From a virus: a DNA stretch of 38,881 bases. The stretch covers positions 1 through 38,881 of the IMG/VR virus record IMGVR_UViG_3300011126_000130; one strand, 5' to 3'. The translations under genes and the position numbers were made by a program. This document shows positions 934 to 34,662 of the stretch, one piece after another; position 1 is the stretch's first letter; every line of letters starts with the position of its first letter. Below the pieces are notes generated by a model. It searched no databases. It had not been told where the DNA came from and saw only the letters and a program-made list of their open reading frames with translations.

Positions 934-1067
934 CGGGAACCTCCGAAGACGCGCTGCGCGAGGACGAAGGGAAAGAGGAGGACGATCGCCGAGTAAAAGA
1001 CGACGACGGTCCAGAGAGAGGGATGGGATTGCGAGGCGACCTTGGCCTCTTGTGCTTCTCGTTTCAT
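930..1067 (-). CDS. 45-aa single-pass membrane peptide
   Basis: The leader AGGAGCAAACAAG ends exactly at an ATG at 1067. The frame runs MKREAQEAKVASQSHPSLW, then a hydrophobic segment (about residues 20-38), and ends QRVFGGSR with an ATGA overlap into the next gene. The copy of the conserved leader and the overlap make it convincing despite its size. One membrane helix with a charged N-terminus is predicted. It is first in the three-gene cassette downstream of the terminator at 1131-1163. No function assigned. Confidence 0.7.
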   Translation of the reverse strand: MKREAQEAKVASQSHPSLWTVVVFYSAIVLLFPFVLAQRVFGGSR

Positions 1068-1096
1068 CTTGTTTGCTCCTTCGGGCGAGTTCGCCC
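1065..1096 (-). promoter_or_regulatory. Leader module: hairpin plus conserved ribosome-binding site
   Basis: On the minus strand a hairpin (GGGCG-AACT-CGCCC) is followed after two bases by AGGAGCAAACAAGATG, the start of the 45-aa gene. This is one of eight places where a stem-loop directly precedes the shared GGAGCAAA-type signal. Confidence 0.6.
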
Positions 1097-1130
1097 TGAC
1101 TCCCCTTCGACGATACGGCAGAAGATTCGC

Positions 1131-1163
1131 AAAGAAAAGGGGGAGGGCGATGAACCCTCCCCC
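1131..1163 (-). terminator. Intrinsic terminator, minus strand
   Basis: On the minus strand a nine-base-pair stem GGGGGAGGG / CCCTCCCCC with a 7-base loop (1139-1163) is followed by TTTTCTTT. This is a textbook intrinsic terminator. It closes the long operon ending with the 206-aa gene (stop at 1227) and separates it from the membrane cassette. Confidence 0.85.
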
Positions 1164-1180
1164 AGGAGCAAACTCGATGA
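1164..1180 (+). promoter_or_regulatory. Orphan copy of the conserved leader in plus orientation
   Basis: On the plus strand AGGAGCAAACTCGATG directly follows the 1139-1163 hairpin, exactly the hairpin-plus-leader arrangement seen on the minus strand. The ATG opens only a three-codon frame (ATG ACC CGC TGA), and the downstream plus strand is antisense to the 206-aa gene. It therefore has no gene behind it. It may be a remnant of a lost or inverted gene or have a non-coding role. Confidence 0.45.
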
Positions 1181-1226
1181 CCCGCTGAAAGTGTCCGAGG
1201 AAACCTCGTCCTAGCCAGCGGTCGAG
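1173..1226. repeat. Nested inverted repeat directly after a stop codon
   Basis: Outer arms (CTCGA, four-base bulge, CCGCTG / CAGCGG, TCGAG) enclose an inner perfect hairpin CGAGG-AAA-CCTCG with internal loops of 8 and 7 bases. The structure begins immediately after the TAG of the 206-aa gene on the minus strand and sits just before the terminator, so it would form the 3' end of that mRNA. Confidence 0.5.
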
Positions 1227-1847
1227 CTATTCGTCGTATGTCAAACGGACCCGCAGCTCTACTACGTCGGCGTCATCGTCGTACGCCAACTTGTTGAGCG
1301 CGTCGGCGACGACCGCTGGCACGTTGATCGTGTCCCTTTTGAGGCCTGTCCTTCGCCGTGTCGGTCGATCCCCAACCTCCTCGACGCGTACCTCGGTGCG
1401 ATCGCTCGCCTCCGATGCTCCGACGATAACCTCGATGTCCATCTTGACGACCTTCTTCTCGAAGAGAGGCGTCTTCTCGCGGAGGCGGGCTTTGTCCCTG
1501 GCCTTCTGGATGGCGGCAGGCCCTACCCCGTTCCCGGAGAAGGCTCCCCTCTTCGAGATGCTACGGAGGAAGCCGAAGGTCTTCTCGTCGATCTCCCCGT
1601 TGTCGAAGGCCTGCGTCGCGTCCCAGAGGAGCCCTATCGCGTCCTCCTGCCGTTGCGTCGACCCGCCGGGGACAACTATCGCGTACGGCTTCGAGCGCGT
1701 CTTGGGGTCTCTGTAGCGGACCAATCCCCTGTAGTCGTTCTTCTTGGCGACGGGGATCCACGGGATCGAGACACGACCGGCGCTCGGGTTCTCTCCGTCG
1801 CGGAGGAACTCCTTCAACACGGTCTTCGGATCGGGGGGGTTGTTCAT
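1227..1847 (-). CDS. Conserved-looking protein of unknown function after recT
   Basis: 206 aa, starting at the ATG that overlaps the recT stop (ATGA). The open frame reaches 30 codons further upstream, but those residues are a shadow of recT. The N-terminal half has several Trp/Pro and aromatic residues (SIPWIPVAKKNDYRGLVRYR) and looks globular. The C-terminal half carries a basic stretch followed by a region rich in Val/Glu. I do not recognise a domain. Being last in the recombination operon and coupled to the annealing protein, it may act in phage DNA metabolism, but this is context only. Confidence 0.75.
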   Translation of the reverse strand: MNNPPDPKTVLKEFLRDGENPSAGRVSIPWIPVAKKNDYRGLVRYRDPKTRSKPYAIVVPGGSTQRQEDAIGLLWDATQAFDNGEIDEKTFGFLRSISKRGAFSGNGVGPAAIQKARDKARLREKTPLFEKKVVKMDIEVIVGASEASDRTEVRVEEVGDRPTRRRTGLKRDTINVPAVVADALNKLAYDDDADVVELRVRLTYDE

Positions 1848-2920
1848 CGGTAAATCTCGGCATCTTCTGGCGTCTCCTGCTCGATCGACTCGGCGAGGAG
1901 TGCGGCCTCGTGGGGGTCGAGTTCGGCGAGGGGACAAGACCTACCGAGGTAGAACTCCATGGCCTTCTTGACCTGCGGAGCCTTGAGCTTCTTCTTCTTG
2001 AGGACGGCTCCGAGGTCCGGTCCTTCCGGTGCCTTGTTCTGCGGAGCCTTCCCCTGCATCTTGTTCGACGGGGACGAGGTTCCCTTGCCCCCGAGATTGA
2101 CTTCCATGTTCACGGCTGGATCCTCCTCGGTCTTGTCGTACGGGTTCTGCGCTTCCTTCGTCTCTCCGATCTGTACGTTCGGCTGTTCGTCGTGCGCTAC
2201 GGAGACCGGCGCGTCGGAAACCTTCGCGTGGATCTTCTGGGTCGACCCGGTCTCTCCCGAGTTGTCGATCTCGATCCCTTCCCCGAGGACGGAGGACGAC
2301 GGGATGCGGACCTTCCCGCTCATGAACAGCCTCTTGACGACGGTCTTCTGCGCCATCTCCTTGTACCACTTGTTCCAGACGTTCTTCGTCATCGCGACCT
2401 GTTTCCTCTTCTCGATCTCCGAGCGAGCCATCATCTCGACGAGCTTCTTCCCGTCAGGGAGAGTCGCGATCGCGTACGCTCCGATGATCTTGTCGTCCCT
2501 CCGGTCGACGTCGAAGCTGTAGGGGTGATGGATCTCGCCGGTTCCCCGGTCGAACGAGAAGTCCTCCCCTTCGTAGACGACCTCGGAGACGACGGAGGAG
2601 ACGACCTTCGACCGGACCGCAAGTTCGATCATCCCTCGGAAGCCGAGTTGCATCGTACACTCCCTCTTGTAGGGAATGAGCCACGCGTGCCCGAGAGTTC
2701 CTCCGGCGTCGAGGCCGATCTGCGCTGCGAGCATCAGGGAGAGGAGGACGCTATCGGGCGTGCAGGTCGCGAGGTCTTTGTTCTTCTGCATCGCGGCGAG
2801 AGCTACGGCAATGACCCTCTTCGGCTCGATCCCCGCCGGGAGGACTGCCTTCAAGAGGCTCTGGTTGTTCCAAAGGAACTGCTTCTGTCTGTCTACTGTT
2901 GAGACCTTCGTTTCACTCAT
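1844..2920 (-). CDS. recT: RecT-family single-strand annealing protein
   Basis: 358 aa. Residues about 1-215 match the RecT core: an N-terminal AVLPAGIEPKRVIAVALAAMQ stretch, then SLMLAAQIGLDAGG, a PYKRECTMQLGFRGMIELA segment and a basic patch around KNVWNKWYKEMAQKTVVKRL. RecT proteins anneal complementary single strands during phage recombination and replication. The tail (about 225-358) is long, charged and Pro/Lys-rich, ending in a small helical segment, and is probably a flexible partner-binding extension. The stop of the upstream nuclease lies inside its leader (TAGGAGCAAACAAGATG), so the two are tightly coupled, as expected for an exonuclease-annealase pair. Confidence 0.9.
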   Translation of the reverse strand: MSETKVSTVDRQKQFLWNNQSLLKAVLPAGIEPKRVIAVALAAMQKNKDLATCTPDSVLLSLMLAAQIGLDAGGTLGHAWLIPYKRECTMQLGFRGMIELAVRSKVVSSVVSEVVYEGEDFSFDRGTGEIHHPYSFDVDRRDDKIIGAYAIATLPDGKKLVEMMARSEIEKRKQVAMTKNVWNKWYKEMAQKTVVKRLFMSGKVRIPSSSVLGEGIEIDNSGETGSTQKIHAKVSDAPVSVAHDEQPNVQIGETKEAQNPYDKTEEDPAVNMEVNLGGKGTSSPSNKMQGKAPQNKAPEGPDLGAVLKKKKLKAPQVKKAMEFYLGRSCPLAELDPHEAALLAESIEQETPEDAEIYR

Positions 2921-2931
2921 CTTGTTTGCTC

Positions 2932-3804
2932 CTACTCCGGGATTCTACCGCCGAACGACTTCTCGCAATCGTGCCAGAAGCCGCAGAAGCGGCGCGTGCA
3001 AAGGGTGTGCTTGCGGTTCGGGAGGAAGACCCCCGAGCGGAAGCAGTCCATGATTTGGGTTCGAGCCATCGAGAGGCGGAGGACGTATCCGTCGCGCTCC
3101 CTTTGGTCGACTGGTCGATTGATGATCTGCGACTCCGCCTCCGGTCCTCTCGACTTCGTGTTCTTCCGGACCATGACTTGGTATTGGAAGATGTCGATCC
3201 TCGCCGAGATCTGCGGCGAGTGCTGTAGCGCGAGGGAGTAGGCAACCGGCTGGTCCTCTTCGAGAACCTTCTTCAACTGCCACTTCCTCTTGGTCGTCTT
3301 CGTGTCGGCGGCGATAGGATCGAGGTGCGCCTCGTTGATCGGCCTCCCGATCGTGTCGATCTCCCCGTTCAAGATCCAGTCTTGGATCGGGAGTTCGAAG
3401 TAGAACTTCGTGTCGACCGGGAGGAACTTCGTCCCTACGTCTTCGCGCCAAGTCGTCGCGAGGTGGACTCCCTGATCGAGCATGATGCCCTTGTCCTCTC
3501 CCTCCCAGTCTTCGACTTCCTTCGAGGCTACGTCCCAGCGGTCGGCCCAGAAGTCGCGAGTCAGCGCCTCGTCCCAATCCACCTGCTCGTGCTTCTTCTC
3601 CTCGAAGTAGGCTCCCGAGAGATCGTCCGTCGCGTTGCCGAAGGCGATCGCTCCCGAGGGAGGACGCCTCAACCCGAGGACGTAGCGGTTGAAGAACTGA
3701 AACTGACAGCGTGTCCACATCCCGAACTTCGATGGGCTCATGCTTCGGACGACGTCCGTTGCTACCTTCGGCTCGACGTAGCCTTCGACCTTTGTATCCG
3801 TCAT
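2932..3804 (-). CDS. Cas4/RecB-like PD-(D/E)XK nuclease with Fe-S cysteines
   Basis: 290 aa. Nuclease core signatures are visible: GEID at 147-150, a D-x-K motif (ADTKT, D167 and K169) and a Q-x3-Y motif (Q185, Y189). Four cysteines, C33 and C269/C274/C280, are placed like the 4Fe-4S cluster ligands of Cas4 and AddB nucleases. The likely role is resection of DNA ends to give the single strand that RecT anneals. It sits directly upstream of recT and 3 bases after the stop of the Zn-finger gene. It is not a CRISPR adaptation gene here: there is no cas1, cas2 or array in the window. Confidence 0.85.
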   Translation of the reverse strand: MTDTKVEGYVEPKVATDVVRSMSPSKFGMWTRCQFQFFNRYVLGLRRPPSGAIAFGNATDDLSGAYFEEKKHEQVDWDEALTRDFWADRWDVASKEVEDWEGEDKGIMLDQGVHLATTWREDVGTKFLPVDTKFYFELPIQDWILNGEIDTIGRPINEAHLDPIAADTKTTKRKWQLKKVLEEDQPVAYSLALQHSPQISARIDIFQYQVMVRKNTKSRGPEAESQIINRPVDQRERDGYVLRLSMARTQIMDCFRSGVFLPNRKHTLCTRRFCGFWHDCEKSFGGRIPE

Positions 3805-3807
3805 CCT

Positions 3808-4113
3808 CTACTCCTTCCCGTCAATGACGGGCTTCGCTCGTTGCAGGAACCGCTCGAACGCGCCGTCGAGCATCTGTTGATGTGGGATCCGGGCTTTGAT
3901 GTCGCCTCCCCACTTGAGGCCTCTCTTCCCGCTCTCGTAGTACTCGACGACCTCGATGCCGAGTTCGAGAAGATCTTCGAGGAGGAGGAGCTTTGCGCGG
4001 ACGCAATCCCCGCAGAGCCAGCTTCCCGAGATCGCGATCTGCTCGGAGTCTACGTTGCAGAAGGCTTGCTCGCAAAGGTCGCAGAGTCCGTTCCCGGCGT
4101 CGTCAGTCTTCAC
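3808..4113 (-). CDS. Small zinc-finger protein
   Basis: 101 aa with two Cys pairs near the N-terminus (C11-x2-C14 and C34-x2-C37, plus C19) that would form a treble-clef or ribbon zinc site. A helical segment rich in Leu and Glu (40-60) and a basic, Trp-containing region follow. It starts inside the 3' end of the HNH gene (11-base overlap) and ends just before the nuclease gene. Possible roles are DNA or protein binding in the recombination operon; no specific family is assigned. Confidence 0.75.
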   Translation of the reverse strand: MKTDDAGNGLCDLCEQAFCNVDSEQIAISGSWLCGDCVRAKLLLLEDLLELGIEVVEYYESGKRGLKWGGDIKARIPHQQMLDGAFERFLQRAKPVIDGKE

Positions 4114-4417
4114 GGCTCTCCCTCTCTCGTCTTCGCCTCCGGTTCGCCGCTCGGTGCGGAGCGTCGTATGTGTTGTGGCAACGCTGACACCACGCTCGGA
4201 GGTTCGCTGGAGCGTTGTTCCCTGGGTTGTGGTCGAGGTGTGCGATCGTCAGGACGACCTTCGAGCCTGTGACCGGATGCGGCTCCCCGTTCGGCGCGGA
4301 GCAATGAGGGTATCGCGGGCTCCCCTCGCAGCACTGCTGCGCTCGTTCGAGAATCCGCGCTCGGATCTCCTTCCAGTTTGCCGGATAGAGCTTCTTGTTC
4401 TCAGGACGGATCGGCAT
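4103..4417 (-). CDS. HNH endonuclease
   Basis: 104 aa. The HNH core is clear in residues 57-85: LTIAHLDHNPGNNAPANL followed by C77-x2-C80-H81, with a further Cys cluster upstream (C29, C30, C39) likely completing the zinc site. H60 and H63, N72 and H81 are the expected metal and catalytic positions. The C-terminus is very Arg-rich. It lies between the SMC-like ATPase (17-base overlap) and the Zn-finger gene. Small HNH proteins in phages can be packaging nucleases, but those normally lie beside the terminase; here the context is recombination. Confidence 0.85.
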   Translation of the reverse strand: MPIRPENKKLYPANWKEIRARILERAQQCCEGSPRYPHCSAPNGEPHPVTGSKVVLTIAHLDHNPGNNAPANLRAWCQRCHNTYDAPHRAANRRRRRERESRED

Positions 4418-5660
4418 CGCTCTCCTCGACCTCCCCGTCCTCGATGATGACGGTACACTCGTTGCCCTTGCCTACCCGTTCGAGCCAGACCTGCGCGTCG
4501 GCTTCCTCGGCCATCTGCGCGAGGAGCTTCACGCCGTTCTCGTCGAGCCTGCACCCGTCTCGGATGAGGAGGACGCGGAGTTCGGGGTTCAACGCCATCC
4601 CGATCGCGACGCAGGCTCGGAGCCTCTCGGCCTGCGAAGCTCGACCGAAGGGAACGCCTCCGAGCCTGACGCCGTCGTCGTGCGCTTCGAGACCCTCGAT
4701 CGGATACTTCGCCTTGGCGATCGCCTTCGCCTTCCGGTCGTCGAAGAGCTTGATCTGCGTCGAGAGCTGGTCCGCGCTGGCCTTCGCGTCGTGGAGCTGG
4801 CCTTCGACGTCTGCTATTGTCGCGTTCTCGGCCTTCCGCTGCCGGTGCCCGTCGACCTCCCCCATCTCTTCGAGGAGCGGCTCGACGTCGATGTCGACGA
4901 GCTTTGTCGCCTCGATCCTCGCCGACTCGGCCTTCGTCTTCGCGTCCATTACCTCGGCCTCCCTCCGCTCTAGCAGGGATCGAGCTTCCTTCACGGCCAC
5001 GATCTTGCCTTCGACCTCGTGCGCGAGGCGGTTGACGTCCTGCCTCTCCTCGTGGTTCCTCCGGTTGTGTGCCTGCGCCGTCGAGATCTCCTCTTGCAGT
5101 TCGACCGGGCTCCGGACGTCCTCGGGGACTCCCTTATGCGGTCCGGGGAGGCTATCGCGCTGGACTTCGAGGCGGTTCACTACCCGGTTGAACTCCGTTC
5201 GCTCCTCGTACTTCGCCTTCCTCGCGGCGTTCAAGGCTGTGAAGTCGAGCCCTACCATCTTGCGGAGGATCTCCGCCTGCGCCCTGGGCTCCGCTCTCTC
5301 GAACTCCAGCGGATCGAAGGTCAAGGCTCCGAAGAGTGCGTCGAGGACCTTCTGCGGGGACGTCAGGGTCGACTTCGGGTTGTCCTTCGGGATCACGCGC
5401 ACTTGGTTCGTCTTCTCTGTGATGATCCGAGAGACGATGAGTTCCTCGGTTTCGAGGACGATCCTCGCCTTCGAGGTTCCGGCGCGAACCGTGCCGACGG
5501 GAGCTTTGCGCTTGCCCCCGAGGGCGGCTTCTATCGCGTCGAGGATCGACGACTTCCCGGCGGCGTTGTTACCCCCGAGGATGACGGACTTGCCGTCAGC
5601 GGTGATACGGACGGCCTTGAGGCCTTTGACGTTCTCGGCTTCGAGTTGAATGATCTTCAT
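4401..5660 (-). CDS. SMC/RecF-like ATPase
   Basis: 419 aa. Walker A is GGNNAAGKSS at residues 29-38 (K36), close to the N-terminus as in RecF, SbcC and Rad50. Residues about 180-320 are charged and helical, a coiled-coil arm much shorter than in true SMC proteins. Near the C-terminus come a degenerate signature region (RASQAERLRACVAIGMALN) and a Walker B-like segment LRVLLIRDG, in which the acidic pair is atypical. Such proteins accompany nucleases and annealases in phages and probably help process DNA ends. The start ATG overlaps the upstream stop within the conserved leader. Confidence 0.85.
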   Translation of the reverse strand: MKIIQLEAENVKGLKAVRITADGKSVILGGNNAAGKSSILDAIEAALGGKRKAPVGTVRAGTSKARIVLETEELIVSRIITEKTNQVRVIPKDNPKSTLTSPQKVLDALFGALTFDPLEFERAEPRAQAEILRKMVGLDFTALNAARKAKYEERTEFNRVVNRLEVQRDSLPGPHKGVPEDVRSPVELQEEISTAQAHNRRNHEERQDVNRLAHEVEGKIVAVKEARSLLERREAEVMDAKTKAESARIEATKLVDIDVEPLLEEMGEVDGHRQRKAENATIADVEGQLHDAKASADQLSTQIKLFDDRKAKAIAKAKYPIEGLEAHDDGVRLGGVPFGRASQAERLRACVAIGMALNPELRVLLIRDGCRLDENGVKLLAQMAEEADAQVWLERVGKGNECTVIIEDGEVEESDADPS

Positions 5661-5932
5661 CGTGTTTGCTCCTGATACGGGTACTTCGGCTTGTCTGCCC
5701 CCCTCTTCCCTTGCCGAGTCTGTGGCATTCCGACTCGCAACTTGATTAGAAGGGAGAGGTCTTCGTCTGGTTCGAGGAGGTCGTTGATCGCCTCCTTCAT
5801 TACCTCTAGGTGGTCTTCATCCTCCAAGAGCATGAAGACCCTTTCGCCCTTGCGGGCTGCTGTGACGATATAGCGAGCCTTGTCTTCGGCTTGCTCTCGA
5901 CGTCGATAGGGGACTTCGGACTCGGAGATCAT
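5657..5932 (-). CDS. Small charged protein of unknown function
   Basis: 91 aa, coupled on both sides by ATGA overlaps. The sequence is charged, with a predicted alternation of helix and strand (ARYIVTAARKGERVFMLLEDEDHLEVMKEAI) and a basic C-terminus. Its last five codons (QEQTR then TGA) are the leader of the ATPase gene: CAG GAG CAA ACA CGA TGA contains the GGAGCAAACACGATG signal, so the ribosome-binding site is read as coding sequence. No family recognised. Confidence 0.7.
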   Translation of the reverse strand: MISESEVPYRRREQAEDKARYIVTAARKGERVFMLLEDEDHLEVMKEAINDLLEPDEDLSLLIKLRVGMPQTRQGKRGADKPKYPYQEQTR

Positions 5933-6315
5933 CCCTCTTCCCCTTCGAACTCCCCGAGCGCGTGCGCGAGACCTTCGGCGGCGAGGGAGGCTACACCTCC
6001 GGCCAGTTCGAGCGCACGGAGAGAGTCGGCAGCGGCTCGCAGGCTCCTATGGAGACCCTGGAGACATCGCTTGCGCCCTACCTCTAAGGCCTCCTCTTCT
6101 GTGAGGAAGTACTTGATCCCAAGCATCTCCTTTGAGATCTGGGAGTTCCACTGAGTGCCTTCGCAGCCTCCCCCCTCGGGGTACCAGAGCTTCTTTGTGG
6201 TCTTCCTGACTCGGATCTTGTGAAGCTCGAAGCTGTTGTAGGCAACCCGAGGGCGGTAGATGAACTCCGGATCGACGTCCGGCCAAACCTGGGTCAAGGA
6301 GTGGATATGCCTCAT
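5929..6315 (-). CDS. Protein of unknown function
   Basis: 128 aa. The start overlaps the upstream stop (ATGA) and the end overlaps the next start. The N-terminal half is rich in aromatic and basic residues (FIYRPRVAYNSFELHKIRVRKTTKKLWYP) and looks like a small beta-rich domain. The C-terminal half is an Ala/Leu/Glu-rich helix ending in an acidic EFEGEEG tail. No domain recognised; the operon position suggests DNA metabolism or takeover. Confidence 0.7.
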   Translation of the reverse strand: MRHIHSLTQVWPDVDPEFIYRPRVAYNSFELHKIRVRKTTKKLWYPEGGGCEGTQWNSQISKEMLGIKYFLTEEEALEVGRKRCLQGLHRSLRAAADSLRALELAGGVASLAAEGLAHALGEFEGEEG

Positions 6316-6827
6316 TGCGCGTTCCTCTCGATGTCGTTCAAGAGGTCAGCGGCTTCGGCGGCGGTCGGCTTCGAGTCGTTGCGCTCGTCGTCGCAGGGCT
6401 CGCAGTAGAGGATCTCGGTGTCGTCCTCGTCGCCGATCCCGTCCTCGATCGCGATGACCTTCCCGCAGCCTCCGCAGATACCGCAGTCCTCGATGTGCGA
6501 GTACGCCTCCTGCATCTCGATCTTCGCCCGTTCGAGGCGGTCGATCGAGCGTGCGAGGAAGAGGGAGAGAGTCCTCTTCGCCTCGTCGAAGTCAGTCCAG
6601 AGGTTGTTCGTCGGATCGCCGATGTCCTCGACGCCGGGATCGACGAGGCGGGGATGCGCGAAGACCGGGTTCGCCTCGGGATCCCTCCCTTCGGGTCGAA
6701 GCTCGTAGATGACGACCTTGCGTCCGTTCGCTCCCCCGTAGACGGGGATGGCTTCGATTGCCCTGATGAAGTGCGGCTCGTTCGCCGTTTCTTGGGCGTA
6801 GATGTATAGAGTTCTCGTGAGTTTCAT
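6312..6827 (-). CDS. Zinc-ribbon protein, first gene of the recombination operon
   Basis: 171 aa. It begins at an ATG preceded by AGGAGCAAACAACG. A C-terminal zinc ribbon is likely from C115-x2-C118-x2-C121 and C142-x2-C145. Before it is a helix-rich region (DFDEAKRTLSLFLARSIDRLERAKIEMQEAY). The first 60 residues form a possible small alpha/beta domain. It opens the operon that runs without gaps down to 1227, so its leader probably sets expression for that whole block. Family not recognised. Confidence 0.75.
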   Translation of the reverse strand: MKLTRTLYIYAQETANEPHFIRAIEAIPVYGGANGRKVVIYELRPEGRDPEANPVFAHPRLVDPGVEDIGDPTNNLWTDFDEAKRTLSLFLARSIDRLERAKIEMQEAYSHIEDCGICGGCGKVIAIEDGIGDEDDTEILYCEPCDDERNDSKPTAAEAADLLNDIERNAQ

Positions 6828-6866
6828 CGTTGTTTGCTCCTACTGAACAGAGGAGGGGATCTCCTC
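6825..6866 (-). promoter_or_regulatory. Leader module: hairpin plus conserved ribosome-binding site
   Basis: On the minus strand a perfect 6-bp hairpin GAGGAG-ATCCC-CTCCTC (6850-6866) is followed by TGTTCAGT and then AGGAGCAAACAACGATG, the start of the 171-aa gene. It is the first spacer upstream of the recombination operon; no convincing -10/-35 pair was seen. Confidence 0.55.
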
Positions 6867-6885
6867 TTCGGGGTCGAGTCTACTC

Positions 6886-7257
6886 CTACTCGAAGAGTCC
6901 GTCGAGCGGCTTCTTCGGGAAGGAACGGTCGAACACCTCCTTCGGTCCTTCGCTGGGAATATCCTCCAGAATGCGGTCGAGGATCTTCTCCGGATCCATC
7001 TCCCCGCAGGTGTAAACGTCGACGACGAACTCTCCCGACTCCGGCCAAGTATGGATGGAGACATGCGACTCGGAGAGGAGGAAGAGAGCCGTGAAGCCCT
7101 GCGGCTTGAACCTGTGCGTGATGTGCCGAAGGAGCGTTGCGCCTCCCTCCTCGATCGCTCGCCTGACGACGGCGACCAGAACGAGCGGATCGTCGAGGAG
7201 ATACAGGTTGCCGTAGTCGACCCGCCTCGTTGCGATCGCCATCTTCCCGAGGTTCAA
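6886..7257 (-). CDS. speD: SpeD-type pyruvoyl-dependent decarboxylase (AdoMet decarboxylase family)
   Basis: 123 aa, the usual length of the bacterial single-chain proenzyme. The hallmark LSESHVSIHTWPE is intact: self-cleavage would fall between E63 and S64, making S64 the pyruvoyl group, with H69 and C84 (DVYTCG) as the partner residues. AdoMet decarboxylase feeds aminopropyl groups into spermidine, a counter-ion for packaged DNA. The N-terminal motif typical of AdoMet decarboxylases (GxHLLVDLYGC) is not visible; instead the protein reads RRVDYGNLYLLDDP. Since some phage SpeD homologues act on arginine or ornithine, the substrate is open. The start is a TTG in a TTGA overlap with a GGAGG sequence upstream; a later ATG lacks one. 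Confidence 0.85.
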   Translation of the reverse strand: MNLGKMAIATRRVDYGNLYLLDDPLVLVAVVRRAIEEGGATLLRHITHRFKPQGFTALFLLSESHVSIHTWPESGEFVVDVYTCGEMDPEKILDRILEDIPSEGPKEVFDRSFPKKPLDGLFE

Positions 7258-8192
7258 CTCGGCCTCCGAAACACGATCGCGAACTCGTGGACCTTCGGCG
7301 CGATCCGGTTCTTGTTGTAGTTCACCCCGAAGATCTTAGGGAGGCCTCCGACGAGTCCTTCGATGATCCACTGATCGTGAAGCTCCCAGCCTGCGCGGAG
7401 GTAGAAGGCGATGGTGTCGGCGTGGTAGGAGTAGAACCTGCCGTCTCGACGGAAGTCATTGACGTTCACTACGTGGTATGCGCCGGGTTTGTGCTTCGGG
7501 AGCCACGCCTTCGCGACGTCGTGCATCCCTTCGAGGAAGTCCGGGTAGCTCTGACCGTGCCCGAGTTGCGCCTCCTCCGTGCCGTAGAACTCGATGTCCC
7601 AGTATGGGGGGGAGTGAAAGGAGAAGTCTCCGACTCCGTCAGGGATCGCCTCGGGGAACCGGGAGTCGCCGAGGTTCGCCTCGATCTTCGTCTCCCCGTC
7701 GTTGATCCTCTCGGCGATCGCTTGGATGTAGCGGACGAACTCCTCGCTAGCATCCATCCCGAGGTAGTGAAGGCCTCGGAGCTTCGCCACCTGCATTTGG
7801 ATACCCTGGCCCATGAACGGATCGACGTATGTCTGCCCCGGCACTGTGTAGTATTTGACGAAGAAGTCGACCAGCTCCGCAGGCATGATCGAGAGACCCT
7901 TCCGATCCTTGGCCTCGTTGTTCCGATAGCCAACCGTGCCCTTGTAGCCAACCTCCTTGTATGCGGCGAGGGTCTCGTCGGCCTTCTCTCTCCCTACGCG
8001 CTCGCGCCAACCCGTGTCGGTGTTGCCGGTCCTCGTCGGGACCTCGTTCTGATAGACGAACATCGACTTCGAGAGGGAGCCTCGCGAGAGCTTCAAGACG
8101 GACATCGGGACGAAGCCGAACTTCTTGACCATCGCCTTCCTCTTGCGGACGGAGTCTTGCATCGACTCCCCGAGCTTCTTTGCGGAAGTCAT
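7254..8192 (-). CDS. DNA methyltransferase (N4-cytosine/N6-adenine type)
   Basis: 312 aa. Motif I (AdoMet binding) is DPFMGQG at 124-130 and the catalytic motif IV is SPPYW at 194-198, with an HSPPYWDIEFYG context typical of amino-methyltransferases. The order I then IV fits the alpha/gamma classes. An N-terminal 100 residues, basic and rich in Lys/Arg, probably helps target DNA. It is flanked by a ParB-like gene, to which it is coupled by ATGA, and by the SpeD gene. It could protect phage DNA against restriction; no cognate restriction enzyme is seen. The target sequence cannot be predicted. Confidence 0.85.
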   Translation of the reverse strand: MTSAKKLGESMQDSVRKRKAMVKKFGFVPMSVLKLSRGSLSKSMFVYQNEVPTRTGNTDTGWRERVGREKADETLAAYKEVGYKGTVGYRNNEAKDRKGLSIMPAELVDFFVKYYTVPGQTYVDPFMGQGIQMQVAKLRGLHYLGMDASEEFVRYIQAIAERINDGETKIEANLGDSRFPEAIPDGVGDFSFHSPPYWDIEFYGTEEAQLGHGQSYPDFLEGMHDVAKAWLPKHKPGAYHVVNVNDFRRDGRFYSYHADTIAFYLRAGWELHDQWIIEGLVGGLPKIFGVNYNKNRIAPKVHEFAIVFRRPS

Positions 8193-8791
8193 CCGAGAAG
8201 CTCCAGGATGGCCTCGTCGATCGTCGGCGAGGACTCTCGCGTCGAGTTGTAGCGCGTCAGGAAGGCGTCGAACGTCTCCTTCGAGACTCGACCCTTCACA
8301 CTACCGAAGGAGAAGAGGATCATCCCGAGGTCGTCAGCGTCTTCGTCGTTGCTCTCCGTTCCTCCTCCCCCGAGACCGTCGAAGAGGTTCGCGATCTCGT
8401 CCTCTGTAAATCCTGACGAGAGGAGAAGCTCCTCGTCGTCCGTGAGAGATCCAATGAGCTGCGCGAGGGTGTCGTCATCCCACTCGGCCAGCTCGGCGGT
8501 CCGGTTGTCGGCGATCGCGAAGGAGGTCGCCTCGGCCTGCGACATCTTCACCCGCACCACGGCGATTGAATCCCAGCCGAGTTCCCTCGCGGCTTCGAGC
8601 GTGCCGTTGCCTGCTACGACGATGCTCGTCTCGTCCTGTACGACGATCGGCTTGACCTGCCCGAACTGCGCAAGGCTGGATTTGATCGCTTCGAGGTTCC
8701 GAACGGAGTGCGTTCGAGCGTTCGCCGGATCGAAGCGGAGGGAGTCGATCGGGGTCAAGAGAGGTTCGAGGTTGCTAGGTACGTTGGTCAC
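8189..8791 (-). CDS. ParB/sulfiredoxin-fold protein paired with the methyltransferase
   Basis: 200 aa from a GTG at 8791. A ParB N-terminal-like domain covers residues about 10-110: ARTHSVRNLEAIKSSLAQFGQVKPIVV (26-52), the nucleotide-pocket motif VAGNGTLEAARELG (59-72) and ADNRTAELAEWD (94-105). In phages this domain often precedes or is fused to DNA methyltransferases. The C-terminal part is acidic with a Gly-rich linker. An ATG at 8848 would add 19 residues but overlaps the upstream gene by 74 bases with a poor ribosome-binding site; the GTG has GGAGG eight bases upstream and a 17-base overlap, so it is preferred. Confidence 0.8.
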   Translation of the reverse strand: MTNVPSNLEPLLTPIDSLRFDPANARTHSVRNLEAIKSSLAQFGQVKPIVVQDETSIVVAGNGTLEAARELGWDSIAVVRVKMSQAEATSFAIADNRTAELAEWDDDTLAQLIGSLTDDEELLLSSGFTEDEIANLFDGLGGGGTESNDEDADDLGMILFSFGSVKGRVSKETFDAFLTRYNSTRESSPTIDEAILELLG

Positions 8792-9047
8792 GCGGAATGC
8801 CTCCGAGGCTTCGCCAGAGTGAGAGGTAGGAAGGAAGGCTGCGGTCATGTACGTAAACCTGCCGAGGGTGTCGACCCCCCTCGACGATGTCGGTCACGAG
8901 CCTGTATTGTTGCTTCGAGACCTGCCCGGAATGGTCGAACAGGACCGCGAAGATTGGCTTCACGAGCCCCAGTTCGAGGGCGAAGACTCGCCCATCATAG
9001 GGACCGCCGAAGAACTCGATCGAGTGGGTTGGTTTGCTCCAAAACAT
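8775..9047 (-). CDS. Small protein with a GGPYDG motif
   Basis: 90 aa. The N-terminal SIEFFGGPYDGRVFALE resembles a common class of small phage proteins that begin with a GGPxDG turn between two strands. The following YRLVTDIVEGGRHPRQVYVHD fits a compact beta fold. The ATG at 9047 lies just after the terminator hairpin. Unusually, the shared leader core GGAGCAAACC lies inside the coding sequence (codons 3-6) and is not followed by a start codon at the usual distance, so the 5' end is worth checking. Confidence 0.65.
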   Translation of the reverse strand: MFWSKPTHSIEFFGGPYDGRVFALELGLVKPIFAVLFDHSGQVSKQQYRLVTDIVEGGRHPRQVYVHDRSLPSYLSLWRSLGGIPRDQRT

Positions 9048-9083
9048 GAAAGACCCCCCTCGATCGTATCGACCGAGGGGGGT
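9040..9083 (-). terminator. Strong terminator hairpin after the DUF932 gene
   Basis: The arms at 9053-9066 and 9070-9083 pair over 14 positions with a 3-base loop. The one mismatch seen on the plus strand (A-C) becomes a G-U pair in the minus-strand RNA. It is followed on the minus strand by CTTTCATGTTTT. It ends the 375-aa gene's transcript, and the start of the 90-aa gene falls within its tail. Confidence 0.75.
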
Positions 9084-9143
9084 GAACGCTATCCCGGAGA
9101 GGAGGGCGGTCTCGTAGGGAGGGGGGTTCCCCTCCGGGACGTT

Positions 9144-10271
9144 CTAGTTCGTGACGTATTGGAGGAGCTTCCCGGCGGCGACGTCGATCTTCGTGCGCTG
9201 CTCGGCGGTCGTCTCGTCCTGGGAGAGGCGGGTAAGAGAGTTGACTGCGCCCCAGGCTGTGTTCGGACTGCCGTCCTGGTCGACGAACCGCTCGCCGATC
9301 TCGTAGGCTGCGCGGAGGCGCTTCTCGGTGAAGACGGCGCGTTGCCTAATCTTACCGCCGAGGCCGAAGAGCGCGTCGAGGACCTCGTCTTTGTTCTTCC
9401 CGAGGACGATACTCTGAGCGGAGCGGATCTTCGCGAGGTCCTTCTCGGTCGTCGAGGCGGCGAAGGCCTCGATCGCGCCGGTGACGCTCGCGGTCCAGCT
9501 CTCCCGGATGTCGCCGGTGTGGATGAGGTCGATCTCGACGGCGTTCTCGATGCCCCAGACGATGTGATTGCCGCAGATTCCTCGGTGGAGGAACGTCGTG
9601 ACGTTCAGCTTCCGATAGCCTACCTCGGAGTTCGAGACGAAGACGCCTCGATGGAGGCCTCCGTCGGCTCCGCCTCTTCCGGGCTCGTCGAGGAAGGAAC
9701 CGCCGGTGATGAGGAAGGCGAAGAGATCGCGCTCGCCTCGGTACAGGCCTGCGGGCTGGTCGCCTGCGGAGGGGGGAACCTTCCACCCGTTCTCCTGCAT
9801 CTCCAGGAGGCGCTCGGTTATGTCGGCGTCGTGGATGCGCTGGTATCGGTCGGAGAGGACGGAGCGGAGGTCGTGCTGCTCGCAGTCGCTGCGATCCGGG
9901 GTGACGTAGAGTTCCCGTTTGAGGTCGTCGGTCTGAGCGCGGAGCCCGTTTTCGAGACAGCGGGCGGCGAGTTCGACGGGGATCTTCGAGAGGTAGGTAG
10001 GAGGACAGCCGACGCGAGTGCAGGTCTGGTCGAAGGCGAAGTTCGTGAGGTCGAACCGGGAAGAACCCGAGACGAGCTGGAGGCGATCGTCCGAGGTCGA
10101 GGCGTGGAGGTCTCCGGCGACCGTCTCGACCGAGTACGAGGAGTCGCGGTCGCGGACTGCGTCGGCGTGGAGGGCTTCGAGGCTTGCGAAGCGTTCGTCG
10201 TCGGGACGACTTCTCCACTGGTCGTGGGCGCGAAGAGAGATTCCGTCGGTCGAGTTGAAAGTGAGTGTCAT
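9144..10271 (-). CDS. DUF932-family phage/plasmid protein
   Basis: 375 aa, one of the larger accessory genes. Its features match the DUF932 family found on phages and plasmids: FDLTNFAFDQTCTRVGCPPTYL near residues 73-94 and a central VFVSNSEVGYRKLNVTTFLHRGICGNHIVW block. The biochemical function of this family is not established; it is often abundant and placed among early genes. Here it is a single-gene unit with its own hairpin leader (10269-10325) and a strong terminator downstream, which suggests independent and perhaps high expression. Confidence 0.8.
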   Translation of the reverse strand: MTLTFNSTDGISLRAHDQWRSRPDDERFASLEALHADAVRDRDSSYSVETVAGDLHASTSDDRLQLVSGSSRFDLTNFAFDQTCTRVGCPPTYLSKIPVELAARCLENGLRAQTDDLKRELYVTPDRSDCEQHDLRSVLSDRYQRIHDADITERLLEMQENGWKVPPSAGDQPAGLYRGERDLFAFLITGGSFLDEPGRGGADGGLHRGVFVSNSEVGYRKLNVTTFLHRGICGNHIVWGIENAVEIDLIHTGDIRESWTASVTGAIEAFAASTTEKDLAKIRSAQSIVLGKNKDEVLDALFGLGGKIRQRAVFTEKRLRAAYEIGERFVDQDGSPNTAWGAVNSLTRLSQDETTAEQRTKIDVAAGKLLQYVTN

Positions 10272-10325
10272 CGTATGGCTCCGTGGTTACGAGCGGTCGA
10301 AGAAGGTGCCCCCCCGAGACCGCTC
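10269..10325 (-). promoter_or_regulatory. Leader of the DUF932 gene with an 8-bp stem-loop
   Basis: On the minus strand GAGCGGTC and GACCGCTC pair (10318-10325 with 10291-10298) around a 19-base loop containing a G run. GTAACCACGGAGCCATACGATG follows. The CCACGGAGC element is shared with the leaders at 11987 and 12548; here CATACG replaces AAACAAG. Confidence 0.5.
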
Positions 10326-10340
10326 GACTCGGGGAGGCGG

Positions 10341-10363
10341 GGAAAGTGGAGGCCGAAGCCTCC
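10341..10363 (-). terminator. Possible terminator after the 76-aa gene
   Basis: On the minus strand GGAGGC-TTCG-GCCTCC is followed by ACTTTCC, six bases after the stop at 10370. The stem is short and the U tract is weak, so it may terminate only in part. Confidence 0.45.
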
Positions 10364-10369
10364 GGTGTT

Positions 10370-10600
10370 CTATCGTCGAGAGCTGCGCTGAATCTGCCGG
10401 TCGATCATCGTGTTGACGCCGTCGATCGCGTTCTCGACGCGGCGGCGATCGCTGCGGGAGAGAGAGGAGAACCGCTCGTCGAGGTAGTCGACGAGGTCGC
10501 CTTCGAGGTTGAGGAGGCCTTCGTCGTCGAGCCAGGAGATGTCTCCGTTGGCGACTCCGTAGCGGGCGAGGATCTGGGTGAGTGCTTTCGCGTTCGTCAT
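10370..10600 (-). CDS. Small helical protein
   Basis: 76 aa, charged and helical throughout (ILARYGVANGDISWLDDEGLLNLEGDLVDYLDERFSSLSRSDRRRVENAIDGVNTMIDRQ), with a basic C-terminus (QRSSRR). The start is set by AAGGAGCAAATAAG just before the ATG. It stands alone between two hairpin leaders, as a single-gene unit. No family recognised; size and charge would fit a small host-takeover or nucleic-acid-binding protein, but this is speculation. Confidence 0.7.
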   Translation of the reverse strand: MTNAKALTQILARYGVANGDISWLDDEGLLNLEGDLVDYLDERFSSLSRSDRRRVENAIDGVNTMIDRQIQRSSRR

Positions 10601-10633
10601 CTTATTTGCTCCTTGGCGAGAAACCCTCTCGCC
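10598..10633 (-). promoter_or_regulatory. Leader module: perfect hairpin abutting the ribosome-binding site
   Basis: A perfect 7-bp stem (GGCGAGA-GGGTT-TCTCGCC) is followed with no gap by AAGGAGCAAATAAGATG. A stem this close to the Shine-Dalgarno would shape ribosome access or protect the mRNA 5' end. Confidence 0.6.
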
Positions 10634-10684
10634 GACTCCCTACCCTACGAAGCCGTCACTAAATATCGCTGACCATCCATGTAA

Positions 10685-10725
10685 TCTCGGCGGAATGTTC
10701 ACCGAATATGAACAGACCGCCGAGA
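10685..10725. repeat. Long nested inverted repeat after the lipoprotein gene
   Basis: Nine-base outer arms (TCTCGGCGG / CCGCCGAGA) and six-base inner arms (TGTTCA / TGAACA) are separated by 2-base internal loops around a 7-base loop. It begins six bases after the lipoprotein stop (10731). There is no U tract on either strand, so it could be an operator-like dyad, a processing site or a factor-dependent terminator. Confidence 0.55.
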
Positions 10726-10730
10726 AGGTG

Positions 10731-11111
10731 CTATTGCGAGATCTCGTCTGCTGCGAGTTTGAAGTAGATGCCGGACTCGTCCCAGTTCGTGACGTTCCCG
10801 CTCGCTGCATCGACGAGGAAGAACGGCAGCGCGAGGTATCCCCAGAAGAGATTGAGGAAGGTCGCCGGTTGGATGCTCGTCCCTACCTTGCGGGTCTGCG
10901 GGACGTAGCCTGAGAGGGAGACAGTGATCTTCCCTTTCGCGTTCTGCTTCAGGTGGACCTGCGCCGGAGTGACTCCGACCTCCTTGCCGTCGAGCTGGAT
11001 CTCGGCTCCGCTCGGCTTGCTCGTGACCATGATGTCGCCTCCTCCCTTCGAGAAGAGTGTCCCGCATGAAGTCAGCGAGAGGAAGAGAACGAGGGCTGCT
11101 ATGAATCGCAT
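10731..11111 (-). CDS. PEGA-domain lipoprotein
   Basis: 126 aa. A lipoprotein signal peptide is clear: MRF, a hydrophobic core AALVLFLSL, and lipobox L13-T14-S15-C16. The mature part carries a PEGA-type repeat (IMVTSKPSGAEIQLDGKEVGVTPAQVHL then KITVSLSGYVPQTRKV), a small beta domain common in bacterial envelope proteins, and then a hydrophobic stretch (about residues 82-105) that may touch the membrane. A phage lipoprotein expressed from the early arm could alter the host envelope or block superinfection, as other phage lipoproteins do. Leader and hairpin make it a single-gene unit. Confidence 0.85.
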   Translation of the reverse strand: MRFIAALVLFLSLTSCGTLFSKGGGDIMVTSKPSGAEIQLDGKEVGVTPAQVHLKQNAKGKITVSLSGYVPQTRKVGTSIQPATFLNLFWGYLALPFFLVDAASGNVTNWDESGIYFKLAADEISQ

Positions 11112-11170
11112 CGTGTTTGCTCCTGTGTTGTAGTTGTGAGAATGCCCCCTCGGCGACGAGCCGAGGAGGC
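11109..11170 (-). promoter_or_regulatory. Leader module of the lipoprotein gene
   Basis: An 11-bp stem (GCCTCCTCGGC / GCCGAGGGGGC with one G-U pair, loop TCGTC, 11144-11170) lies between the metallohydrolase stop and the lipoprotein start. It is followed by ATTCTC and, 20 bases on, AGGAGCAAACACGATG. It may double as a weak terminator for the upstream pair. Confidence 0.55.
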
Positions 11171-11177
11171 GAAGAGG

Positions 11178-11741
11178 CTATGTCTTGAGGTCTCGGATCT
11201 TCGAGGTGATCTCGTCGATCGCTCGACGATGCCGCTGCCGCTCCAGCCGGAGGACAGCGATCTTCTCGATGCGTGCCCGGTCGACCCGAGAGAGCGGCTT
11301 CGGGCACTGCCCGGGATGCGCGAACCGAACCATGCGAGGGCGCTGTTCGAGACCGAGAGCGACCGCGAAGGATGGGTCGAGTCCGGCGTGGTCCTCGAAC
11401 AACTCGACCAGGATCCGGGCGAACTTCGGCCCGTGCCAGGGACCGTCGCCGTCGAGGAGCGAGTGCGCTACCTCGTGGAGGACGGTCTGCACGTTGCGTG
11501 CGTAGAGAGGGAGAGCGATCCTCCGGCGAGAGCCGCAGGCGCTCCTCCTCCCGCGACCGTCTCCGACAACCGGCGGCTTGGCGTTCGGTCCTCGGTACGA
11601 CTCCCAGACCTCGTGGACGAGGGTCGCGCACTCGCGGAGGGTAAGCTCGCGGAGGAGTGCCTTCCGGGTGTCGGGGTCGACTTGGTTGACGAGCCGGACC
11701 TCCCACCGATAGACAGCGGAGCGTTGCGAGTCGCGGGTCAT
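11178..11741 (-). CDS. HExxH zinc metallohydrolase, TIGR04338-like
   Basis: 187 aa. The zinc site is H89-E90-V-A-H93 with a likely third ligand at H103 (PWHGPKFARIL). The opening TRDSQRSAVYRWE resembles the start of the TIGR04338 putative metallohydrolases known from actinobacteria and their phages; SprT-like proteases share the HExxH...HGP layout. The C-terminal 60 residues are basic and helical. Substrate unknown. It is coupled by ATGA to the 83-aa gene upstream. Roles could include cleavage of a host protein or peptidoglycan peptide; nothing in the sequence decides this. Confidence 0.75.
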   Translation of the reverse strand: MTRDSQRSAVYRWEVRLVNQVDPDTRKALLRELTLRECATLVHEVWESYRGPNAKPPVVGDGRGRRSACGSRRRIALPLYARNVQTVLHEVAHSLLDGDGPWHGPKFARILVELFEDHAGLDPSFAVALGLEQRPRMVRFAHPGQCPKPLSRVDRARIEKIAVLRLERQRHRRAIDEITSKIRDLKT

Positions 11742-11989
11742 CGAGCTTCCTCCTCGCAGGAGGCTTTGGCTTCGCGGAGGGTCGTCGCGTCGTCTGTGAC
11801 GATCATCCAGCCGAAGTTCGACTTCTGCCGGACGTAGAAGCGTCCAGAGGGCTGACGGAAGATCCAGAACTCCCGGCGGCTGAGGGTGCGTCCTCCGGCG
11901 TACGACCAGACGGCGTTGGCCTCCTCGGTCGCGTGCGCGAGATCGACCGGCCAGTCGGAGTAGGCTTCTCGGTGTAGGGTCAGGTTCAT
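11738..11989 (-). CDS. Small protein coupled to the metallohydrolase
   Basis: 83 aa, starting after CCACGGAGCAAACACG and ending in an ATGA overlap with the metallohydrolase. Many aromatic residues (YSDWPVDLA, AVWSYAGGRT, EFWIFRQPSGRFYVRQ, FGWMIV) indicate a small beta-rich globular domain, followed by a short charged helix. No family recognised. The fixed pairing suggests it could modulate the metallohydrolase or share its target. Confidence 0.7.
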   Translation of the reverse strand: MNLTLHREAYSDWPVDLAHATEEANAVWSYAGGRTLSRREFWIFRQPSGRFYVRQKSNFGWMIVTDDATTLREAKASCEEEAR

Positions 11990-12031
11990 CGTGTTTGCTC
12001 CGTGGTTGCGGAGAGCGCGGAGTGCGCTCCC
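11987..12031 (-). promoter_or_regulatory. Leader module: hairpin plus CCACGGAGCAAAC
   Basis: On the minus strand the hairpin GAGCGC-ACTCC-GCGCTC (12013-12029) is followed by TCCGCAACCACGGAGCAAACACGATG in two adjoining pieces: the spacer TCCGCAA and the shared element CCACGGAGCAAAC. The same element heads the 65-aa gene (12548) and, in part, the DUF932 gene. Confidence 0.6.
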
Positions 12032-12038
12032 CTGAGTG

Positions 12039-12356
12039 TTAGCAGTCGAAGTGATTCTCGAAGGTCCTCTGAACGTGGGCGCAGGCCCTGTCGTAGGCTG
12101 CTTGGTTCTTCTCCCGGCGAGAGAGTTCGGCGCGGACCCAGGCCAGCGCCCCCTCGTTGGCGGCGATCCGGTTGTTCGTCTCGTACGCCTCGACCTTGAG
12201 CTGATCGAGGGTCTCTCCCCTCGTGGGATAGTCCTCCTCGTTGTGGAAGATGTCGGCCTCGTGGCGGATCGTCGCGAGGAGGCCTCGATCGAGTGCGAGG
12301 TCTGTTTCGAGACGGAGGAGGCTGGCTTCGAGTTCGGCGTTCGTCTGGATGGTCAT
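12039..12356 (-). CDS. Coiled-coil protein, paralogue of the adjacent gene
   Basis: 105 aa, almost entirely helical with heptad character. Its ends match the neighbouring 65-aa protein: NAELEA near the start and EGALAWVRAELSRREKN near residues 68-84. It has about 35 extra residues in the middle and a Cys-ending tail (ENHFDC). It is coupled to that gene by ATGA, with AGGAGCAAAGACG as leader. The pair looks like a tandem duplication; the function is unknown, and they may form a heteromeric coiled coil. Confidence 0.7.
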   Translation of the reverse strand: MTIQTNAELEASLLRLETDLALDRGLLATIRHEADIFHNEEDYPTRGETLDQLKVEAYETNNRIAANEGALAWVRAELSRREKNQAAYDRACAHVQRTFENHFDC

Positions 12357-12550
12357 CGTCTTTGCTCCTTTGTGCGTAGTTCGGCCTCGACCCAGATCAG
12401 TGCCCCCTCGGAGGAGGCGATCGCGTCGAGGAGGTATGCGTGGCGTCGAGCGTGCCTCGGGTCTCCGAGCTGGAGGCGTCCGTGCCTCAGTTCGAGCTTG
12501 AGTTCTTCGCGGCGGGCTTCGAGTTCGGCGGTCGTGCGGGGGGTCGTCAT
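12353..12550 (-). CDS. Small coiled-coil protein, first gene of the minus arm
   Basis: 65 aa, helical and charged: TAELEARREELKLELR at the N-terminus and EGALIWVEAELRTKEQRR at the C-terminus, both similar to the following gene. It is the first gene after the divergent control region, so probably the earliest expressed protein. Its leader is GGAGCGAACAAG with a hairpin upstream. No family recognised. Confidence 0.7.
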   Translation of the reverse strand: MTTPRTTAELEARREELKLELRHGRLQLGDPRHARRHAYLLDAIASSEGALIWVEAELRTKEQRR

Positions 12551-12591
12551 CTTGTTCGCTCCGTGGCTTCGGGTTCGCTAAATCCTAGCGA
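12548..12591 (-). promoter_or_regulatory. Leader module of the first minus-arm gene
   Basis: A perfect hairpin TCGCTA-GGATT-TAGCGA (12575-12591) is followed by a 12-base spacer and GGAGCGAACAAGATG, preceded by CCAC as in the leader at 11987. This is the 5' leader of the leftward transcript. Confidence 0.6.
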
Positions 12592-34093: not shown

Positions 34094-34650
34094 TGTCGAC
34101 CCTCTACCCGTACGAGCAAGACCGGATCCGTCGATGGGTGAAGGACGTCGACGATATGGTTGCCGGAGACCTCAACGACCTCTTCGACATCGCGGTCGCG
34201 ATCGAGACGGAACTCGGGATCCAACCGAGTGGCAAGTTCGGCACGGTCGAGGCTCGCCTCTTCTCCCTCGGTAACATCTCTCTGATCGACGGGCGCTTCC
34301 GGCGGCTCCAATGGTGGATCAAGTACCATCAGGTTGGCTCGATCTTCAGTGACACCGGGTTCGGGCTCATACAGAACTACCAAGGCCAGCGGTTCGCGAA
34401 CCGGACGACGGTCTTCGGCGAAGGAGTGCCGGGCATATTCGTAGCGTTGCAGGCTCCTCTCTCGACAACCATCGGGACCGGCGGCTATGGTGGCGTGCCT
34501 TGGGCTCTCTCGGTGGCGATACTGGAGAAGGACTTCTTCGTTGTGTTTGGGTCGGATGGCTACGGGACCTCCCTGCACAAGGGGCGGCTCTCGACGACGA
34601 ACCAAGCCACGGCGATCCAGTTCGCCTCCCTTGCTTGGAACATGTACTAG
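34093..34650 (+). CDS. Tail tip/fibre protein
   Basis: 185 aa, starting one base into the previous stop (TAATG). Residues about 40-57 (ELGIQPSGKFGTVEARLFSL) match a motif frequent in phage fibre and tip proteins, in which a trimeric helix leads into a beta domain. The remainder is Gly- and aromatic-rich (GYGGVPWALSVAILEKDFFVVFGSDG). The role in host contact is inferred from this motif and from position. Confidence 0.6.
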   Translation: MSTLYPYEQDRIRRWVKDVDDMVAGDLNDLFDIAVAIETELGIQPSGKFGTVEARLFSLGNISLIDGRFRRLQWWIKYHQVGSIFSDTGFGLIQNYQGQRFANRTTVFGEGVPGIFVALQAPLSTTIGTGGYGGVPWALSVAILEKDFFVVFGSDGYGTSLHKGRLSTTNQATAIQFASLAWNMY

Positions 34651-34662
34651 GAGCAAACGATG
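34651..34662 (+). promoter_or_regulatory. Conserved ribosome-binding leader on the plus strand
   Basis: TAGGAGCAAACGATG joins the stop of the 185-aa gene to the start of the 229-aa gene. It is the best plus-strand match to the leader used repeatedly on the minus strand, with a spacer shorter by three bases. Confidence 0.6.

Follow-up and report, generated by a model that had tools for sequence, protein, structure and literature searches.

What does a short leader do when it is repeated, almost letter for letter, in front of gene after gene of one viral module, and why does a single copy of it lie inverted just before a transcription terminator? The question is raised by the window analysed here, that is, the whole stretch of 38,881 bases (guanine-cytosine (GC) content 61.6%) of the IMG/VR virus record IMGVR_UViG_3300011126_000130, in which the minus-strand genes at about 0.4-12.6 kb form a recombination and accessory module. 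The explanation that we favour, with moderate confidence, is that the leader is a strong translation signal specific to this phage and similar to the start-associated sequence (SAS) of Cluster K mycobacteriophages, that the hairpins lying in front of leaders are independent of it, and that the inverted copy, hereafter called the anti-leader, probably makes a sequestration switch of the type known from T4 gene e at gene 1067 (genes are named by their start positions).

The repeated leader as a probable translation signal

The sequence GGAGCAAAC occurs nine times in the window, where only 0.22 copies are expected by chance. Six copies stand at minus-strand gene starts (1067, 2920, 5660, 6827, 11111 and 11989), the copy at 9040 falls within the open reading frame (ORF) 8775-9047, and the plus strand has the remaining two (1165 and 34650). 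Near variants precede three more minus-strand starts, namely GGAGCAAAT at 10600, GGAGCAAAG at 12356 and GGAGCGAAC at 12550, and with them all nine starts named in the first-pass annotation of this DNA are confirmed. That list had passed over the two plus-strand copies, of which one marks a gene start (34650) and the other is the anti-leader when seen on the transcribed strand (1165). If the more divergent form GGAGCCATACG before the start at 10271 is also counted, ten genes of the module are found behind the leader. Its layout is a Shine-Dalgarno sequence (SD; AGGAG), an A-rich and nearly fixed spacer CAAAC, then ACG or AAG, then ATG, with the core AGGAGCAAAC; thus identity does extend beyond the SD into the spacer, as had been noticed. 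A further shared element, CCACGGAGC, had been placed farther upstream at 10271, 11989 and 12550, and it turned out to be the SD itself preceded by CCAC. Gene starts were picked by hand from the ORF list, and no gene caller was used.

Is such a leader anything more than a good ribosome-binding site? It might be that it is a favourable site of host type with an A-rich spacer, that the hairpins are ordinary 3′-end or intercistronic structures of a GC-rich phage, and that the copy at 1165 on the plus strand arose by chance or is left over from a gene start; we regard this explanation as possible, if on the doubtful side. In its favour, GGAGCAAAC before ATG is used repeatedly in unrelated phages, five times in one (L050) and twice each in four others (L045, L080, L098 and L111), and two of these sites also stand behind a terminator-like hairpin. 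When the two commonest forms of the leader were searched for as exact strings, contigs nearly always had a single copy; only L050, which has no protein in common with the window, had five of GGAGCAAAC. A comparison with phage loci fetched without regard to the leader motif (404 kb) argues the other way: CAAA after GGAG (GGAGCAAA) is found at none of their 385 GGAG...ATG starts, against eight minus-strand starts in the window. In the reuse of a single start-associated 9-mer, the window is second among the fetched loci only to phage Anaya, which has the SAS. Moreover, the structural genes of the same phage mostly have other spacers.

The leader is not a general ribosome-binding site of phages, and we read it as a phage-specific translation-initiation signal. 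Between SD and start the predicted mean unpaired probability is 0.70 at the leaders and 0.42 at other starts. Its phage-specific character and its higher predicted accessibility support selection on the region where translation is initiated, and to this extent the earlier proposal of selection holds; its other half, conserved structure with changing sequence, is not covariation, because the leaders of one genome are not homologous to each other. In the simplest reading the leader is a standard and presumably strong ribosome site; most of the early genes that it serves lack translational coupling, and the repeat would supply an accessible and uniform binding site to the early recombination and accessory genes.

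All the leaders in front of module genes are on the minus strand. The form AGGAGCAAACAAGATG is found both at 1065..1080, before gene 930-1067 (45 amino acids with one hydrophobic stretch), and at 2918..2933, before recT (1844-2920), where no hairpin lies upstream. Two leaders have the form AGGAGCAAACACGATG, one at 5658..5673 before the SbcC-like ATPase gene (4401-5660) and one at 11109..11124 before gene 10731-11111. Gene 6312-6827 is preceded by AGGAGCAAACAACGATG (6825..6841), gene 9144-10271 (phrog_1362) by the divergent CCACGGAGCCATACGATG (10269..10286), gene 10370-10600 by AGGAGCAAATAAGATG (10598..10613), gene 11738-11989 by CCACGGAGCAAACACGATG (11987..12005), gene 12039-12356 by AGGAGCAAAGACGATG (12354..12369), and gene 12353-12550, the first of the module, by CCACGGAGCGAACAAGATG (12548..12566). 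At 5660 and 12356 the leader is kept although it falls within the end of the upstream coding sequence. The plus-strand copy at the start of gene 34660-35349 reads GGAGCAAACGATG (34650..34662). Apart from the window, one of the contigs with two copies (L111, 625-800) has them in tandem, 173 bp apart; in each, AGGAGCAAACACGATG stands behind a terminator-like hairpin, and the first codons are shared as well.

Hairpins in front of the leaders

When the 45 nucleotides upstream of the SD were folded and compared with dinucleotide shuffles, the eight non-coding leaders gave a mean z of -2.25 (Stouffer -6.4), and the other 15 starts gave +0.19. Stems of at least 7 base pairs (bp) are present in six of the eight, against 13% of the positions in the module; the corresponding values for non-coding leaders of three actinophages (Anaya, Sonali and Gorpy) are 15-24%. 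Thus the stem-loops reported earlier at eight places are borne out by folding, but not the same placement ascribed to them: the 3′ end of the hairpin is mostly 2-12 nucleotides from GGAG and about 21 at 11111, and one of the eight, at 9053..9083, is an ordinary intrinsic terminator (14 bp with a U-rich tail) and not of the kind that accompanies the leader. It precedes the ORF start at 9047, which has no leader, and the GGAGCAAAC copy at 9040 lies inside that ORF.

The other hairpins, again on the minus strand, differ from gene to gene. The one at 1083..1096 is a 5-bp GGGCG/CGCCC stem 3 nucleotides before the SD, that at 6849..6867 has 7 bp and a 5-nucleotide loop, and that at 10615..10633 (GGCGAGA/TCTCGCC) ends 2 nucleotides before the SD. 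The 9-bp stem at 10290..10326, with its 19-nucleotide loop, shares bases with an 11-bp hairpin at 10308-10338, and the two cannot form together. The hairpin at 11144..11170 (11 bp, 5-nucleotide loop) is also right after the upstream stop codon, and that at 12010..12032 (9 bp, 5-nucleotide loop) is also shortly past one, while TCGCTA-GGATT-TAGCGA at 12575..12591 has no gene upstream on the same strand. Do these structures then belong to the leaders, or are they 3′ ends of the preceding genes? That some of them directly follow a stop codon favours the latter, as the host-type explanation supposes, and the single hairpin at 6827, 11111 and 11989 may belong to the 3′ end of the upstream gene; its ownership is ambiguous because one hairpin serves both positions. 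At 1067, 10271 and 10600, however, the gap holds a separate hairpin after the stop codon in addition to the one near the SD, so the SD-proximal hairpins there are not upstream 3′ ends, nor is the hairpin at 12550, since the module begins with that gene. These four count against the view that all are ordinary 3′-end structures. On the other hand, the motif stands without a hairpin at 2920, 5660 and 12356, and therefore motif and hairpin are separable features.

As to function, no U-tract follows the SD-proximal hairpins, and the only strong minus-strand terminators are those at 9053-9083 and 1139-1163; the attenuator role suggested for them is thereby not supported. Two negative results count against our own account: the hairpins do not significantly raise the accessibility of the SD over that of shuffled leaders, and upstream of them no motif or promoter is shared across the leaders beyond what shuffles give. 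On the first of these grounds the idea that they insulate the SD was rejected, and a role in mRNA stability is for the same reason an inference. Most likely they would be local mRNA structures, 5′ or intercistronic stabilisers, that make a second and separable feature of the non-coding gaps, and neither terminators nor sequence-specific operators.

Another thought is that early mRNAs are controlled through a target made of hairpin and GGAG together, which a phage protein that binds RNA, or a phage endoribonuclease, would recognise in the manner of RegA or RegB. T4 offers examples of both for early translation initiation regions, namely RegB, which cleaves them at GGAG, and RegA, whose targets number about 30 (PMC3014915); the motif is indeed concentrated in the module of non-structural genes. 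Yet the part of the ORFs that was scanned for protein families gave no RegA- or RegB-like match, the hairpins vary in sequence, loop and distance, and three leaders have none; we therefore consider such a target very improbable.

Two structures of the region deserve mention in their own right. The gap before the phrog_1362 gene (10272-10369, minus strand) holds three hairpins in a switch-like layout, one with a TTCG tetraloop (about 10346-10363) and the mutually exclusive pair 10308-10338 and 10290-10326. Past gene 10731-11111, at 10685-10722 on the minus strand, there is a long interrupted inverted repeat, CTCGGCGG..GTTCA..TGAAC..CCGCCGAG, without a U-tail, which is possibly a protein site or an RNA structure. 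Covariance models of Rfam gave no match on the window at the gathering score.

The anti-leader and gene 1067

How, then, is the inverted copy to be understood? On the transcribed minus strand the GGAGCAAAC copy of 1165 reads TCATCGAGTTTGCTCCT (1164..1180), and of the 17 positions of this anti-leader 15 are complementary to AGGAGCAAACAAGATGA, which spans SD, spacer and AUG of the next gene downstream (1067); to the other leaders it is nearly complementary too. Directly 3′ of the anti-leader follows a strong intrinsic terminator, GGGGGAGGG-TTCATCG-CCCTCCCCC-TTTTCTTT (1132..1163), which ends the exonuclease-recT-rusA operon and, at 1139-1163, ranks among the top two of the region; on the 5′ side of the anti-leader a hairpin at 1182..1221 lies past the stop codon of the rusA-like gene. 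The anti-leader is hardly an accident, because with up to two mismatches allowed only 0.08 matches to its pattern are expected in the window, and the site at 1164-1180 matches with none. Two non-chance origins can be named: a working anti-leader, or a relic of a plus-strand gene start (AGGAGCAAACTCGATGACCCGCTGA, with a 3-codon ORF). An origin as part of a larger inverted duplication was also considered and rejected, as the similarity stops at the leader and the first codons.

The folding of the RNA speaks for a working element. In the RNA that reads through the terminator, both the minimum free energy fold and the centroid fold hold the helix of anti-leader and leader (z -5.9), and SD and AUG of gene 1067 are predicted to be unpaired about 0% of the time. 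Blocking the helix costs a predicted 15.4 kcal/mol and frees most of the SD, which is otherwise fully paired, and in an RNA that starts after the terminator the SD core is predicted to be open at 0.7-0.99. Accordingly arranged, one antisense copy within the 3′ end of the operon, between hairpin and terminator, would act only when polymerase reads through: by base-pairing to SD and AUG of gene 1067 it would keep that gene untranslated. If the read-through RNA is sequestered in this way, gene 1067 would be translated only from an RNA that starts downstream of the terminator. Nothing but terminator read-through would be required for such sequestration in cis, while a promoter between 1138 and 1100, as well as the relevance of the switch in vivo, is what we infer.

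Several points tell against this switch. No promoter was found between the terminator and the leader of gene 1067 in a scan that covered sigma-70-like sites only. The AUG of gene 1067 is predicted to be paired even in the short RNA. A bare 10-nucleotide complement is found upstream of a start at about 1% of positions by chance. The anti-leader fits better elsewhere, at 16 of 17 positions for gene 5660 and 20 of 22 for gene 11741 against 15 of 17 for gene 1067, which is odd for a purely cis-acting element. No homologous leaders exist in the relatives found, hence covariation lends no support. Finally, the plus-strand reading of the site, GGAGCAAACTCGATGACCCGCTGA (1165..1188), itself resembles a gene start. 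This last point is what the relic explanation would expect: the copy fits the consensus of gene starts including ATGACC, and is most like the starts 11741 and 16010 (20 of 22 identical to 11741). What speaks against a relic or a coincidence is that it opens an ORF of only three codons (MTR, stop) and sits just where an anti-SD would act.

An action in trans is also conceivable. The recT operon might give off its terminated 3′ end (about 1226-1132; hairpin, anti-SD and terminator) as a small RNA, and by pairing with every leader this RNA would silence the early genes jointly, which would explain the fixed spacer. Its layout is indeed that of a small RNA ended by a terminator, with the anti-SD (UUGCUCCU) single-stranded between two hairpins. 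The predicted hybrids with leader genes are in the best 1-8% of the background, and the anti-leader is predicted to form duplexes of -23 to -30 kcal/mol with nine leaders and of -37 kcal/mol with that of 11741. Such complementarity to every leader is nevertheless weak evidence for action in trans, because one inverted copy of a repeated motif gives it automatically. Part of the seed is paired within the RNA, and L050 has five copies of the motif and no inverted one; we think such a small RNA unlikely. If it were true, one small RNA would silence a regulon of about ten early genes, and the spacer would be invariant as its target site.

The module, its relatives and known phage systems

The module has, all on the minus strand, a RusA-like gene (1227-1844), RecT (1844-2920), an exonuclease (2932-3804), the SbcC-like ATPase (4401-5660), a DNA methyltransferase (7254-8192) and a ParB-like gene (8189-8848). 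Adjoining the last two is an S-adenosylmethionine decarboxylase (6886-7257, minus strand; Pfam AdoMet_dc, E 1e-25). The product of gene 10731-11111 (minus strand) is a PEGA-domain protein with a lipobox-like N-terminus (LTSC), and a lipoprotein is unusual in an early phage module. From 12.7 kb onward the plus strand carries terminase, portal, capsid and tail genes; ARAGORN called a tRNA-Glu at 34774-34873 on this strand, within ORF 34660-35349, which is probably a false positive. By megablast the first 25 kb of the window have no match among GenBank phages, and its structural proteins are only distantly related to those of sequenced phages. No relative that bears the module appeared in protein-guided scans of viral contigs (AAA ATPase, phrog_1362, RecT, major capsid, RusA-like and terminase) or in scans of genome contigs with portal and terminase. 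The sole close relative found, contig L128 (1-7489), covers structural genes from terminase to capsid at 76% nucleotide and 64-83% protein identity, and it is without the module.

Which known systems come near to this arrangement? In Cluster K mycobacteriophages the SAS (GGGATAGGAGCCC; a 13-bp consensus with at most two mismatches) is a repeat containing AGGAG that lies a few bases before ATG, keeps one orientation and mostly belongs to non-structural genes; its description also includes rarity in the host genome. Upstream of about half of the sites lies the extended SAS (ESAS), 17-bp inverted repeats with a common consensus that were argued not to be RNA hairpins, and in four K1 phages (Anaya, Adephagia, Angelica and CrimD) one SAS copy is reversed and away from gene starts (PMC3203893, PMC12699233). 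The leader of the window is likewise an AGGAG repeat just before non-structural starts in one orientation, with an inverted repeat upstream of part of the sites and a single inverted copy. However, it reads AGGAGCAAAC followed by ACG or AAG, outside the 13-bp consensus, and its hairpins vary from gene to gene and share no k-mers beyond shuffles, unlike the 17-bp repeats. Since both the sequence that defines the SAS and the shared repeat are missing, the leader is not a member of the SAS. The inverted copy of the window precedes a terminator, whereas no terminator hairpin is seen after the reverse SAS of Anaya, and for this reason the anti-leader arrangement is not a known trait of the SAS.

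For the switch itself, the nearest model is in T4, where the SD of genes e, soc, 49 and I-TevI is sequestered in long early transcripts (PMC3014915). Here too an upstream complement is predicted to pair, in the read-through transcript, with the SD and AUG of the gene that follows, and an RNA started nearer the gene would not have this arm. The window differs in that the arm is itself a copy of a leader that many genes use, and that an intrinsic terminator follows it, with about 83 nucleotides between arm and leader; moreover, no late promoter was identified in the window, and gene 1067 has no known function. Antisense and small RNAs of phages, such as lambda OOP, P22 sas and VpdS (reviewed in PMC12197685), also have a short antisense stretch in non-coding RNA, and that of the window ends at a terminator. 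It is different from them in being a prediction from sequence, and in that its proposed targets are many leaders sharing a motif.

The function of the SAS in Cluster K phages was left open at its description in 2011, and with it the question of why a ribosome site is conserved beyond the needs of the ribosome. The phage of the window has the same habit with another sequence, together with one inverted copy placed like an anti-SD before a terminator. It thus offers a concrete idea, control of a repeated leader by base-pairing, which is amenable to a simple reporter test.

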